Assembly: GCF_022267535.1 (NCBI RefSeq) | Contig: NZ_JAHNZV010000002.1 | Coordinates: 62,001 to 126,000 of the forward strand | DNA length: 64,000 nt | Source of the DNA: Psychromonas antarctica | GTDB lineage: Bacteria > Pseudomonadota > Gammaproteobacteria > Enterobacterales > Psychromonadaceae | Direction of reading: 5' to 3' | In this document: one piece after another, positions 33,766-44,003 of the stretch | How positions within the stretch are numbered: the first letter of the stretch is position 1 | Layout: each line of letters starts with the position of its first letter | The notes under the pieces: generated by a model | The model's database searches: none | Seen by the model: the letters and a program-made list of their open reading frames with translations, nothing else | Told to the model about the DNA's origin: nothing | Position numbers and translations under genes: made by a program

Positions 33766-34531
33766 TTTTAAGTTTAGTCTTAATTAGTAAAGTTAGGAAA
33801 AATTTAATTTTCGGTCAAAGTAATCTGTTAATAGGTATAACCACTATACCTCAATATTTTTTATCAGGACTCAGTTCAGAGACCAGAATAAGGTGCAGTA
33901 TCAGGCCTTTCGAGCGATTAACTGCGTTAATCCTCTACCGACAGATGTAAATGCGGATTCCCTTATCGAATGCTGCAACGCAATACTAGTTTTCGAGCAG
34001 ATCCTCGCAGGGCAAGCCAAATTGCATATTCAAATATCATGGGTATAGATTAATGCTTCGTTTGCAAATGTGCAAACAGTGCGTCTTAGTAAGACCATAA
34101 CTTATGATGTTATAACAGAGCAAATTAATATGCTAATTTGCTATAAATTAACTTAGCAATAACTCACTATTGCCCCCCCTCACATTAACAAACGCAAACC
34201 CATCTCCCATTCAATGATACAAAGACCAACCAGACTGTCATCTCATTGTCACTTAGTTCCTTATAATAGTAGAAAAATATGAGCGATATATTTAAGCTCC
34301 GCTCGGAGTAATGAAATATAATTTACCATTAAAATCATCAAGTTAAAATATAACAACATGTAATGTTAATCATTTTTTATAGTGCCAGCAACTCAACGAA
34401 CAATCGCGGGCTATTGCTCGTTGGATTAACGCAGAAATACACGAAAATAGCTGTACTGTATCGATTTACCTGTTCCGAGCTGAGGGTATTTATATCAAGC
34501 AACCATTTTTAGTATAAAGACAGGAAATGCA
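33766..34531. repeat. Gene-free region with degenerate repeat (copy B)
   Basis: No gene is supported. 33866-33960 matches the copy at 21095-21195 in order and spacing of short blocks (CAGTTC, CCTTT, GCGATTAA-N5-GTTAA, GATGTAAA). 33988-34008 (TTTTCGAGCAGATCCTCG) matches the piece at 19610-19628. The promoter for the following PBP-OmpA gene is presumably near 34.4 kb. Confidence 0.4.
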
Positions 34532-36313
34532 ATGTCAGAGCAGACTGGGCACTTAAACTTAAATCCGCAATTTAAAAAGCAACTTGGCTTGTTACAAGCA
34601 ACGGCAAAAAGCGAATTTAATATTCATATCTCACTCGATAAAATGGCTCAAGATAAACAATATAGAGAAACCGTACTGAATGAACTCAGCGAGTTAGGTA
34701 ATGAAACATTAAATGAGCAAGTGCACCTGTTAAGACGAGTTCGCATCTATTTAAAGTCTGCTCCCAGCTCTTTAGTGTTAGATTCTTTACCCTCTCCAGT
34801 GCCTTCAAACGGGAAAAAGGACTGTCAATTTAATCTACTCGCTTTCTTTTTTTTACTGTTCGTTTGCCTATCCGCTATTGCGGCATGGCAGAACGGCTAC
34901 CTATATATTTCCTTAAGCCAATGCCCTATCACAGATCCCCCCCTGCTTATTGCAGATAAACAAGCACGATTCATCACCGAGACGGTAATCGCAACGCCCA
35001 CTATAAGGGAGATAACGACACCGGCTATGAGTAAAAAAACGCTGACTTTACCGAGCGAAGATCGAACCATTAGTTTACGTTTACATGGTTCAAATACAAT
35101 TGGTGAAAACCTCGCGCCCGTATTATTAGAGAATTATTTAAAATCGCAAGGGATCTTGGATATGCTTTGGATCAAAGGAAGTGAACAAGCTGAACGCGAA
35201 TTACAATATATTAAAGACGGGCATATTTATGCGATTGAATTACTGGCGCATGGTTCCAGCACCGGCTTTAAAGATATTATAAATGGCCAAGCTGATATGG
35301 CTATGTCATCACGGAGAATTAAAAATAAAGAGGTGCAATTATTGCGACCTTTATACGGCGATTTAGGATTATCCGCACAAGAATATATTATCGGGTTAGA
35401 TGGACTGGCTGTCATTGTCAATCCTAATAATCCTATTACACACCTGACAAATGAAATTTTAGCAAAAATATTCTCTGGAAAGATAGTTAATTGGATAGAT
35501 CTCGGCGGCCCTGATTTAACCATTAACGTCTATGCCCGCGACCAAAATTCAGGTACTTGGGATACTTTTAAAAACTTAGTACTAAAGGCCAATGGACAGC
35601 AATTAATAAGCTCAGCAAGACGTTATGAGTCTAGTAGTAAGCTTTCTGAAAAGGTGGCGAAGGATCCCGGTGCTATCGGTTTTATTGGGCTGCCTTATGT
35701 TAATAACAGTAAAGCCCTTGCTATCGCCGCATCAGACACTACGATACCTATCTACCCGACCCGTTTTACCATCAGTACAGAAGATTACCCGCTTTCACGG
35801 CGCTTATATGTTTATGCCCCTTCAGTCGGTAACAAAATGGTCAAAGAGTTTGCTCATTTTATTACCTCCCATGCAGGGCAGGAAATTGTTGAACAGATAG
35901 GGCTTATTTCACAAAATATAAAGCTAGAAACTATTTATAAAATTAAAAATGCACCGCAGGTTTATAACGATTACAGCGGAGTGGCGAAACGCCTTTCGGT
36001 CAATTTCCGTTTTGAAAGTAGTCGTAATGAACTAGATAACAAGGGCAAACGCGATCTGTTACGCCTAATTGAGTATATGGCCGATAATCCTGGCCGCCGT
36101 ATCGTCCTGATGGGGTTCTCAGATTCACTCGGCGATCCTGAAAAAAATAAAAATCTGTCTTTACTACGCGCCAGCGTTGTTGAGCAAGCATTAATAGAAA
36201 GGGGGATAAATGTGATTGCCGTTGAAGGTTTCGGTGAGCAATTGCCGATAGCCTCTAATCACAATGCACTGGGTCGAAGTAAAAATAGACGCGTAGAAGT
36301 CTGGTTTTTCTGA
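34532..36313 (+). CDS. Phosphate-binding-like protein fused to an OmpA domain
   Basis: The 593 residues show a three-part layout. Residues 1-95 are cytosolic and helical. A single transmembrane helix lies at about 103-122 (LLAFFFLLFVCLSAIAAW). A PstS-type periplasmic binding domain spans about 180-465, with GSNTIGENLAP, GSSTGFKDIINGQADMAMSS and RDQNSGTWDTFK, the phosphate-coordinating loops of PstS-like proteins. The C-terminal OmpA-like domain (about 480-593) includes GFSDSLGDPEKNKNLSLLRA and RSKNRRVEVWF, which binds peptidoglycan. It would be anchored in the inner membrane and tied to the wall. Similar PBP-OmpA fusions exist; the ligand and role are unknown. The next gene follows after 31 bases. 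Confidence 0.8.
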   Translation: MSEQTGHLNLNPQFKKQLGLLQATAKSEFNIHISLDKMAQDKQYRETVLNELSELGNETLNEQVHLLRRVRIYLKSAPSSLVLDSLPSPVPSNGKKDCQFNLLAFFFLLFVCLSAIAAWQNGYLYISLSQCPITDPPLLIADKQARFITETVIATPTIREITTPAMSKKTLTLPSEDRTISLRLHGSNTIGENLAPVLLENYLKSQGILDMLWIKGSEQAERELQYIKDGHIYAIELLAHGSSTGFKDIINGQADMAMSSRRIKNKEVQLLRPLYGDLGLSAQEYIIGLDGLAVIVNPNNPITHLTNEILAKIFSGKIVNWIDLGGPDLTINVYARDQNSGTWDTFKNLVLKANGQQLISSARRYESSSKLSEKVAKDPGAIGFIGLPYVNNSKALAIAASDTTIPIYPTRFTISTEDYPLSRRLYVYAPSVGNKMVKEFAHFITSHAGQEIVEQIGLISQNIKLETIYKIKNAPQVYNDYSGVAKRLSVNFRFESSRNELDNKGKRDLLRLIEYMADNPGRRIVLMGFSDSLGDPEKNKNLSLLRASVVEQALIERGINVIAVEGFGEQLPIASNHNALGRSKNRRVEVWFF

Positions 36314-36344
36314 AAATACGCGGTTATCCATTAAGGAGATAAGA

Positions 36345-36809
36345 ATGCATTTACTAGATAAAATTAAAACCACATTAGTTGATTTTTTCAACAGCTTTGA
36401 TCCGCAACAAGCGGTAATGATGGCACAGAACATTCAAAAAAAATTAGTAGAGCCACTGTCACCAGCACATCAAGTATTACTTTTAATGGACGATAAAAAC
36501 ATTAAATTGGATGATTTTTCGGCTGACAAATACCTTCCATTGCTGCATTTTTATTTGCCCCCGATTAAAATGCAGCAAGCTATCTTTTTATCTCAAGCAA
36601 AACTTGCACAGCTGCAACAATCATTTCACAGCACGAAAACATGCGATTATTTAGATTGTTTTTATCAACTACAGGCGGGTAAATTACAGGTAGTCAACAC
36701 TCAGCAAAGCTTTCATCAAAATATGATCTTATATAGTGAATTATCGCCGCTACAGCAATTAGAAGCACAAAAATTACTTAAGCAAAAAAGAAATGTGGCA
36801 TCGGCTTAA
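36345..36809 (+). CDS. Hypothetical protein downstream of PBP-OmpA fusion
   Basis: A 154-residue protein with no family I recognise. It has a strong RBS (AAGGAGATAAGAATG) and starts 31 bases after the PBP-OmpA gene, so is probably in the same transcript. It is rich in Gln and Leu, mostly helical by composition, has no signal peptide or membrane segment, and a single CDYLDC pair. Likely cytoplasmic partner of the membrane protein by context only. Confidence 0.55.
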   Translation: MHLLDKIKTTLVDFFNSFDPQQAVMMAQNIQKKLVEPLSPAHQVLLLMDDKNIKLDDFSADKYLPLLHFYLPPIKMQQAIFLSQAKLAQLQQSFHSTKTCDYLDCFYQLQAGKLQVVNTQQSFHQNMILYSELSPLQQLEAQKLLKQKRNVASA

Positions 36810-41918: not shown

Positions 41919-44003
41919 ATGACAACAACCCCTATTAATCTGCTCAGTGAAGAGCAGCTTGCAGAAATATCATCAGGGAAACACTGGTCTTTTCACGGAG
42001 GTATTCACCCTCAAGAGAATAAACAGCAAAGTAGCAAAGCAATTATTAAAGATGCTGGGATCCCCCCTTTTTTAGTTATAGCCGTTGAGCAGAAAGGAGA
42101 GAGCCCCTTACTGCTAGTTAATATTGGTGATTCCGTATTAAAAGGACAAGCTTTAACGAAAGCAACTGACGTTATGGTCGTACAAAACGCGAGCAGTTCA
42201 GGTACTGTCACGGCTATCGAGAAACGCACCGACCTTCATCCCTCTGGCTTACCTGTTTTGTCCGTAGTCATTGCAACTGATGGCTTGGATCGGAGTGTAG
42301 AATATAGCCGCTGTGCTGATTATAAAGCGCAAACAAATACACAACTTATTGAAAAAATTCAAAATGCAGGCATCATCGGGTTAGGTGGAGCGGGTTTTCC
42401 AACACATTTAAAGCTGGCCCATTATGCAGCTATTAAACTACTCATTATCAATGCGGTTGAATGTGAACCCTATATCACTGCAGATGACCGCTTAATGCAG
42501 GAGCATGGCGATGAAATTATTGATGGGATCACGGTACTGCAGCATATTCTCAAACCTCAATTAATTGTGATAGCCATTGAAGATAATAAACCAGATGCTA
42601 TTGCAGCGATCAAGCGCGCATTACAAAAAAAACAATCATCACAAAGCGCTAATATCATTATTCGCACTATTGCGACTCACTATCCATCGGGTAGTGAAAA
42701 GCAGTTAATTGAGATTATTACAGGGCAACAAACGCCTATTGGCAAACACCCTAGCGAGCTAGGAATTGTCATGCACAATGTGGGAACTGTTTTTGCGATT
42801 AAAGAAGCGATTATAGATGGTAAACCGCTCACCTCTCGTATTGTCACGCTTACCGGTGAGGCTTTTCGCAAAAAGGGAAATGTTAGTGTCCGTATCGGCA
42901 CGCCGATTCAGTACCTATTAGATAAATATGAATTCACTCCCACGGCATCACAAAAGTTAATTATTGGCGGACCAATGATGGGATTTTCGATCACACATGG
43001 TGATGTTCCGGTCACAAAAACCTGTAATTGTATTGTTGCACCGACCTTGCAAGAGATGCCCGAATCGCCACCTGAAATGCCCTGTATCCGCTGTGGGGAG
43101 TGTGCAGAAGTTTGCCCTGCACAGCTATTGCCACAGCAGCTTTTATGGTATGCAAACAGCAAAGATAACTCTAAATTAGATGAGTACAATCTTTCATCTT
43201 GTATTGAGTGTGGTGCTTGTGCATTCGTTTGCCCTAGCCATATTCCATTAGTGCAATATTACCGCATCGCTAAAGCTGAAATAAGCAGTGCCAAACAGCA
43301 AGCGGAAAAAGCAGAAATTGCACGCATTCGTTTTGAACATCGCGCGGCTCGCTTGCAGCAAGCCAAATTAGATCGCCAAGTAAAACATAAACAAGCGGCT
43401 GAAAAACGTAAACAGCAGTTACAAGAGACAAACGGCGGTGAAGATTTAATTGCCGCCGCTATCGCCCGTGCTAAAGCGAAAAAACAGGCAACAGCTGACC
43501 CTAGCGACGCGCCTGCCGATAACAAAAAAGACGCCGTAGCTGCTGCCATTGCCCGTGCTAAAGCAAAGAAACAGGCTGCCGCCGAGCACAGCGACGCGCC
43601 TGCCGATAATAAAAAAGACGCCGTAGCTGCTGCCATTGCCCGTGCTAAAGCAAAGAAACAGGCTGCCGCCGAGCACAGCGACGCGCCTGCCGATAATAAA
43701 AAAGACGCCGTAGCTGCCGCCATCGCCCGTGCTAAAGCGAAGAAACAGCAAGCCTTAGAATCGACGCAGATAAATACAGAAATAAATCCCGAAAACAGTG
43801 CGGCTATAGCAGCACGTAAAGCGCGTAAAGAGCAAGCAAGATTACATAAGCGACAAGACCTGCCAGCACAAATAATTGACACAACGATCGCTGAGCCGCA
43901 AACGATTGACACAACCATCAAGGCGAGCGACGACAAAAAAACTAAAATTGCAGCCGCCATTGCGAAAGCGAAAGCGAAAAAAATTGCACAAAAGGATCAA
44001 TAA
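41919..44003 (+). CDS. rsxC: Rnf/Rsx electron transport subunit C
   Basis: NADH-binding peripheral subunit with FMN and two 4Fe-4S clusters. It has 694 residues. Residues 1-440 form the NqrA/51-kDa-like core with GLGGAGFPTHLKL, then CIRCGECAEVCP and CIECGACAFVCP. The C-terminal half is a low-complexity Ala/Lys/Asp tail with three 29-residue repeats and further partial copies. Such repeated tails are known in RsxC proteins and vary in number between strains; their function is unknown. Confidence 0.96.
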   Translation: MTTTPINLLSEEQLAEISSGKHWSFHGGIHPQENKQQSSKAIIKDAGIPPFLVIAVEQKGESPLLLVNIGDSVLKGQALTKATDVMVVQNASSSGTVTAIEKRTDLHPSGLPVLSVVIATDGLDRSVEYSRCADYKAQTNTQLIEKIQNAGIIGLGGAGFPTHLKLAHYAAIKLLIINAVECEPYITADDRLMQEHGDEIIDGITVLQHILKPQLIVIAIEDNKPDAIAAIKRALQKKQSSQSANIIIRTIATHYPSGSEKQLIEIITGQQTPIGKHPSELGIVMHNVGTVFAIKEAIIDGKPLTSRIVTLTGEAFRKKGNVSVRIGTPIQYLLDKYEFTPTASQKLIIGGPMMGFSITHGDVPVTKTCNCIVAPTLQEMPESPPEMPCIRCGECAEVCPAQLLPQQLLWYANSKDNSKLDEYNLSSCIECGACAFVCPSHIPLVQYYRIAKAEISSAKQQAEKAEIARIRFEHRAARLQQAKLDRQVKHKQAAEKRKQQLQETNGGEDLIAAAIARAKAKKQATADPSDAPADNKKDAVAAAIARAKAKKQAAAEHSDAPADNKKDAVAAAIARAKAKKQAAAEHSDAPADNKKDAVAAAIARAKAKKQQALESTQINTEINPENSAAIAARKARKEQARLHKRQDLPAQIIDTTIAEPQTIDTTIKASDDKKTKIAAAIAKAKAKKIAQKDQ
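43504..43764 (+). repeat. Three tandem 87-bp repeats inside rsxC
   Basis: The segment beginning GCGACGCGCCTGCCGATAA recurs at 43504, 43591 and 43678, exactly 87 bases apart. Each unit codes for 29 residues starting SDAPADNKKDAVAAAIARAK. The copies are nearly identical in DNA, so recent expansion or gene conversion is likely. Confidence 0.9.

Follow-up and report, generated by a model that had tools for sequence, protein, structure and literature searches.

What might be the role of a PstS-like phosphate-binding domain that is joined, in one polypeptide, to a membrane helix and to a peptidoglycan-binding domain, away from any phosphate transporter genes? The question is raised by a gene in a window of 64,000 nt from the genome of Psychromonas antarctica (contig NZ_JAHNZV010000002.1). 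A first-pass annotation, made from the sequence alone, had read its product as a cytosolic helical domain followed by a membrane helix, a PstS-like domain and an OmpA domain, and the ORF, the Pfam matches and the AlphaFold2 model agree with this reading. The small gene of no known function that it had placed close downstream, and to which it had thought a phosphate signal might be passed, is also found as an ORF on the same strand. We refer to the two genes as the fusion and the partner (Table 1).

Table 1. Features of the fusion-partner locus, in window positions; residue numbers are those of the fusion protein
Feature	Position	Strand	Basis or remark
Pho box CTGTCATCTCATTGTCAC, 13/14 consensus positions	34235..34252	+	scan of window upstream region
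-10 hexamer TATAAT (perfect), 9 nt after Pho box	34262..34267	+	composite score 19/20 for 34235-34267
Fusion gene (593 aa)	34532..36313	+	ORF, Pfam domains, AlphaFold2 model
Cytosolic four-helix module, residues 12-69	34565..34738	+	AlphaFold2 and profile comparison; kept across Gammaproteobacteria
Membrane helix, residues 99-129	34826..34918	+	AlphaFold2; membrane-segment check
Flexible linker, residues 130-178	34919..35065	+	pLDDT mostly <50 at 130-160
PstS-like phosphate-binding domain, residues 179-457	35066..35902	+	Pfam, fold, residue alignment
OmpA peptidoglycan-binding domain, residues 486-592	35987..36307	+	Pfam, fold; D531 and R546 invariant
Partner gene (154 aa), soluble product	36345..36809	+	ORF, 31 bases downstream of fusion; repeat 1 and C-terminal part kept

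In Pfam the fusion matches PBP_like_2 at residues 235-446 (E 6.5e-33, above the cut-off) and OmpA (PF00691) at residues 494-586 (E 2.1e-14; 54 bits vs. a cut-off of 27.2), and shows the order that defines the PstS-OmpA family, PBP_like_2 and then OmpA in a single chain. The AlphaFold2 model, computed from an alignment of 36 family members, has a mean pLDDT of 87.7, with low confidence in the linker between membrane helix and binding domain (about 130-178). A membrane segment lies ahead of the PBP domain in all 37 module-bearing fusions examined, and the linker that follows it has a median length of 52 residues (range 30-112). In Foldseek the OmpA part matches the C-terminal domain of OprF, and its residues D531 and R546, invariant over the 36 members, form the Asp/Arg pair that we take to bind diaminopimelate. 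Full-length relatives of the fusion occur in 9 of the 24 genus genomes (10 copies; one genome has two tandem copies of the pair) and in at least 573 tblastn-confirmed stretches of genome contigs, so the architecture is not a product of chance. The best 80 of these at least 573 relatives, from the genome contig scan, served as our locus set, which includes Colwellia, Pseudoalteromonas, Rheinheimera, Marinobacterium, Amphritea, Cellvibrio and Pseudomonas. The NCBI name of the family, "phosphate ABC transporter substrate-binding/OmpA family protein", is borne by a 47% identical relative from Pseudoalteromonas.

Around the fusion, reading of translations points to clpA, clpS, hsp20, nrdG/nrdD and rsx genes as neighbours, and the ORF list for 28-44 kb of the window contains no ABC transporter gene. 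A pstC/pstA/pstB operon is absent around the window fusion, and no pst cluster appears in the commonest neighbour families of the 80 relatives. The first-pass annotation had made the same observation on ABC transporter genes and had concluded that a transport component was unlikely; this is a weak argument, since a role in phosphate acquisition is suggested by the Pho-type promoter and by the relatives of Psp3 type (both described below), and it is further weakened by a separate PstS-like gene elsewhere in the same genome. In the copies with readable flanks, the pair is located at two sites, either by clpS and hsp20 (the window and its sister genome G022) or by dapD, near yciI and trp genes, and fusion and partner remain paired at both. 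At about 43259-43960 of the window, the stretch for the C-terminal tail of an RsxC-like protein contains near-identical in-frame repeats (KDAVAAAIARAKAKKQ...). In 16 of the 80 loci (L093, L097, L098, L100 and 12 more) a TerC/Alx-family gene, confirmed as TerC for L093, lies near the PstS-OmpA gene; these are Pseudomonas-type loci, and the gene is on the same strand, mostly directly downstream and in one case upstream.

The residues expected to hold the ligand are well kept. In E. coli PstS we take S38, D56, R135, D137, S139, G140, T141 and T10/F11 to be the phosphate contacts. Residues S242, R336, S340, G341 and T342 of the fusion correspond to S38, R135, S139, G140 and T141, with which they are identical, and are invariant over 36 diverse fusion members; the T10/F11 loop contacts are misaligned in the E. 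coli PstS alignment, and the GSNT motif of that loop is invariant. D56 is replaced by S260, as it is by Ser in every one of the 17 aligned PstS-like proteins, and the position of D137 is variable in the fusions, as in those PstS-like proteins. Foldseek places PstS structures closest to the binding domain in the PDB (1twy, E 6e-21; 4n13, E 1.1e-20; also 4gd5), and the fusion scores 170.3 bits against the PstS model TIGR02136, below the curated cut-off of 206.6. The first-pass proposal of phosphate as ligand, for which conservation of binding residues had been named as a check, thus gains support from these contacts and from the PhoB-type promoter, and the protein probably binds phosphate.

To see how widely Pho-type promoters precede fusion genes, we scanned upstream regions for plus-strand sites starting at -120 to -40, with E. 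coli pstS as a control (Pho box 14/14). Two of 88 upstreams were dropped (<200 nt), and the start codons of 51 were set by script. A Pho box of at least 11/14 was found in 45 of 86 fusion upstreams vs. 11 of 886 other genes, a contrast whose p-value overstates independence because 44 of the 86 are Pseudomonas-type and similar module-less loci. The mean over fusion upstreams was 10.58, higher than that of each of 400 permuted motifs (8.53, sd 0.29, largest 9.88). The composite of Pho box and -10 element reached at least 15/20 in 43 of 86 fusion upstreams vs. 10 of 873 other genes, and at least 16/20 in 22 of 86 vs. 1 of 873, the latter above all 150 permuted motifs. Several family members have no good Pho site. 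The family-wide association of fusion genes with predicted PhoB-type promoters is new and is the strongest point of this analysis.

In the window itself the putative Pho box is at -297 relative to the start codon, vs. a usual position of -50 to -110, and the fixed -120 to -40 range yields only 7/14. A naive scan of the whole window gives 5 sites vs. 4.97 expected, i.e. chance level, so what speaks for this box is where it lies, the -10 element and the evidence from the family. The sister genome G022 has a row of tandem half-sites spaced by 11 nt, the last of which ends 9 nt ahead of TATAAT. In the P. antarctica genome, only three sites differ from CTGTCAY-N4-CTGTCAY by at most one mismatch, vs. 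0 + 2 for the pattern reversed as a control: the one before the window fusion, one 72 nt before a two-acyltransferase gene and one inside a transposase-like gene. The second of these, a strong Pho-box-like site, precedes a gene with Acyltransf_2 and Acetyltransf_5 domains (G000:C231, L225:1443-3263) that resembles OlsF, presumably, and its presence suggests ornithine-lipid synthesis under phosphate starvation. The promoter at the window fusion, if used, would give the mRNA a leader of about 260 nt (34268-34531), in which no Rfam family was matched. Scans for sigma-70 promoters and terminators performed no better than on shuffled sequences.

The cytosolic module is a single family, as the N-termini of the Alteromonadales group and of other Gammaproteobacteria align as one (hhalign 96.2%, E 2.5e-9); it was found in 8 of 274 class genomes. 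Sequence comparison of the module with the PDB returned mostly designed helical proteins (best E 0.00016). The Pseudomonas fusions have a short signal-peptide-like N-terminus in its place, and in a Desulfuromonas copy (L111) it is replaced by a region weakly resembling Roadblock/LC7 (E 0.0014, short of the cut-off). The module also occurs outside PstS-OmpA proteins. Four loci (L178, L180, L181 and L182) encode it ahead of a membrane helix and a beta-helix-like domain; Pho-box-like sites of 12/14 lie upstream of two of them (L180 and L182), and L180 is divergent from genes reading as pstS, pstC and pstA. Short module proteins of about 90-100 residues (L175 and L176) are encoded next to a gene reading as a sigma54-type regulator.

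Conservation of the downstream gene had been set by the first-pass annotation as a check on the proposed link, and the link proved real. The partner, whose start codon is preceded by AAGGAG, is directly 3' of the fusion in all 10 Psychromonas copies, and a diverged partner is found 3' of the fusion in 12 further loci of Alteromonadales type (Marinifaba, Pseudoalteromonas, Colwellia, Rheinheimera and two MAGs). Profile searches of all ORFs of the 80 loci detected it with 14 of 36 module-bearing fusions and with none of the 44 that are module-less; it is always on the same strand, at a distance of 9-122 nt downstream. In L099 and L117 a wrong-frame ORF was apparently taken as the fusion, but across all loci the module had no match in another ORF. 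A survey of 295 genomes sampled from the order gave the same picture: the partner was found in 11 of the 13 genomes whose fusion bears the module (G039 and G045 being the exceptions), in 0 of 19 whose fusion is module-less (a few of these being partial matches) and in 1 of the 263 that have no fusion at E 1e-60. A Fisher test of 11/13 vs. 0/19 gives p 6e-7 with kinship of the genomes ignored. The Psychromonas partner profile matched only the window genome among the 274 class genomes. The partner groups are homologous by hhalign (95.4%, E 1.8e-8; 98.0%, E 1.9e-13; 73%, E 3.1e-5), and profiles built from single groups cross-match, e.g. at E 5.5e-9 and 2.4e-10. In a tree of the fusions, in which the row for L099 is apparently a wrong-frame ORF, the partner-bearing group appears as one change, with weak support (33/91; 40% of bootstrap trees). 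The pairing is specific, adjacent and co-inherited. Module-bearing fusions outside the Alteromonadales have no detectable partner, so the module must function there without it.

The partner appears to be a new family built of two repeats. The model of the Rheinheimera protein shows two three-helix repeats (8-50 and 87-129) followed by C-terminal helices, and the repeats are related to each other (hhalign 98.4%, E 7.6e-15). The window partner has an in-frame gap by which the middle, including the second repeat, is gone, vs. its relatives, which keep it; since the closest relative, from G022, is full length, the loss is either recent or an assembly fault. No convincing family was found in Pfam, only scattered matches in NCBIfam and PHROGs and none in PADLOC, and no solved structure is clearly similar (Foldseek best E 2.3; VIA-align best Z 4.5). 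Weak Pfam matches suggested an H-NS relative, which is doubtful, as hhalign against the H-NS N-terminal domain gave only 0.5-22%. That domain (PF22470) occurs in 0 of 24 genus genomes vs. 9 of 17 other relatives. A repeat matched a Fis-type helix-turn-helix at 77% over 33 columns in hhalign, against a set that included L204, itself found by the repeat profile, and whole-partner profiles reached only 50% and 18% against the same set; a Fis-type fold for the repeat is best taken as a lead. The sole orphan, a protein of 134 aa in G445 (L177:6703-7107, minus strand), has a single partner repeat and adjoins a gene with a Zot domain (PF05707), and may reflect an inovirus-like element carrying a piece of the family. 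This protein had no match in phage records and one in plasmids, a pair of the known kind.

The closest described relatives are from Pseudomonas. Psp3 is a Pi-binding protein with an OmpA domain present in all Pseudomonas screened, its secretion under Pi stress being seen only in P. stutzeri DSM4166, one of three Pseudomonas strains (PMC5082522), and deletion of P. putida PP_3818, of the same make-up, from a strain without Pi transporters lowered the final density in phosphite medium, the function of PP_3818 being called unknown (PMC9358898). Psp3 and PP_3818, which we assign to the family of L093-L137 by domain make-up and genus rather than by direct alignment, share with the window protein the PstS-like and OmpA domains in the same order, and Pho-type promoters are predicted upstream of many of the Pseudomonas relatives examined here. 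In contrast, the Pseudomonas forms have a short N-terminus and neither module nor partner, whereas the window protein has an inner-membrane anchor and a cytosolic module. PstS proteins of the TIGR02136 type (Borrelia BB0215, 4n13; Vibrio cholerae, 1twy; Clostridium, 4gd5) have the same fold and phosphate-contact motifs, but the fusion has no pstCAB alongside, is joined to OmpA and a membrane anchor, and scores below the cut-off. Inner-membrane OmpA proteins of the MotB/ZorB/TssL type likewise have a cytosolic N-terminus, one membrane helix and a C-terminal OmpA domain, but lack the periplasmic PstS domain; the PADLOC ZorB/MotB models match only residues 499-592 of the fusion, and no MotA-like gene is among the listed window neighbours. 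Nothing recognised as treating the partner or the module, or a Pho box of the PstS-OmpA family, came up in the literature covered, which takes in few subscription journals. The fusion thus appears to be a membrane-anchored variant of Psp3, accompanied by a new partner family.

We consider it about an even chance that the pair is a phosphate-capture unit of the Pho regulon, tethered to inner membrane and peptidoglycan and docked in the cytosol. When phosphate is scarce, PhoB-type control would turn the pair on, and the PstS-type domain would be held in the periplasm by the inner-membrane helix at one end and by OmpA on peptidoglycan at the other, so that phosphate would be captured near the membrane. 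The periplasmic core would be the part in common with Psp3 of Pseudomonas, and the four-helix module, to which the partner may bind in Alteromonadales, would dock the receptor on a cytosolic or inner-membrane machine, either Pst/PhoU/PhoR or another. Forms with the module and forms without it share both the periplasmic part and the Pho promoter, so the likely core function is to capture phosphate during starvation. Module and partner add a connection to the inside, by which signalling to the cytosol is possible.

Such signalling would be central if the fusion were a true transmembrane phosphate sensor, in which the ligand would alter either the oligomerisation of the protein or its tension, with module and partner relaying the signal. 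It would fit that a binding-protein and membrane-helix architecture carries a conserved module in the cytosol, that the partner is restricted to module-bearing fusions and that the cytosolic part is swapped in the Desulfuromonas copy; however, the long disordered linker, the Pseudomonas relatives that keep periplasmic part and Pho promoter without a cytosolic part, and the finding that neither module nor partner has a known output domain make a sensor unlikely, if well worth considering. Linkers of 30-112 residues are mechanically poor for a relay, and recruitment or scaffolding is more plausible. Of the signalling idea in the first-pass annotation, the association of fusion and downstream gene therefore stands, but a direct conformational relay is improbable. 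More speculative is that module and partner form a second Pho signalling route apart from PstB-PhoU-PhoR, through which the cytosol would read whether a wall-anchored receptor has phosphate bound; since the module is also on the beta-helix type proteins, half of them with Pho-box-like sites, it would serve generally as the cytosolic plug of envelope proteins of phosphate starvation. We regard this as rather unlikely.

Two further explanations concern the binding domain. The ligand might be another oxyanion or a phosphonate, phosphate starvation being merely the inducer, as is hinted at by the variable D137 position and by the Ser in place of E. coli PstS D56, a residue which we take to discriminate against sulfate. 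The same Ser in all the PstS-like proteins aligned and the PstS structures as closest in the PDB argue against this, and we hold it to be improbable. The least probable explanation, to which we give little credence, is that the protein serves only to tie the inner membrane structurally to peptidoglycan, as needed under phosphate starvation, with the binding domain as spacer or scaffold; OmpA domain and inner-membrane anchor would suit it, as would the ZorB/MotB matches confined to the OmpA part, but a spacer would need none of the phosphate-contact motifs, which are all invariant.

The capture unit that we favour would place a widely annotated family of PstS-OmpA fusions, of unknown function, in the Pho regulon, and the partner defines a protein family without a convincing match in the libraries searched. 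By what means Pst/PhoU convey phosphate status through the membrane has long been an open problem. A predicted Pho-regulated receptor on inner membrane and wall, with a co-inherited partner, offers a compact system for asking whether such proteins provide another route for reading phosphate or a means of capturing it by tethering.
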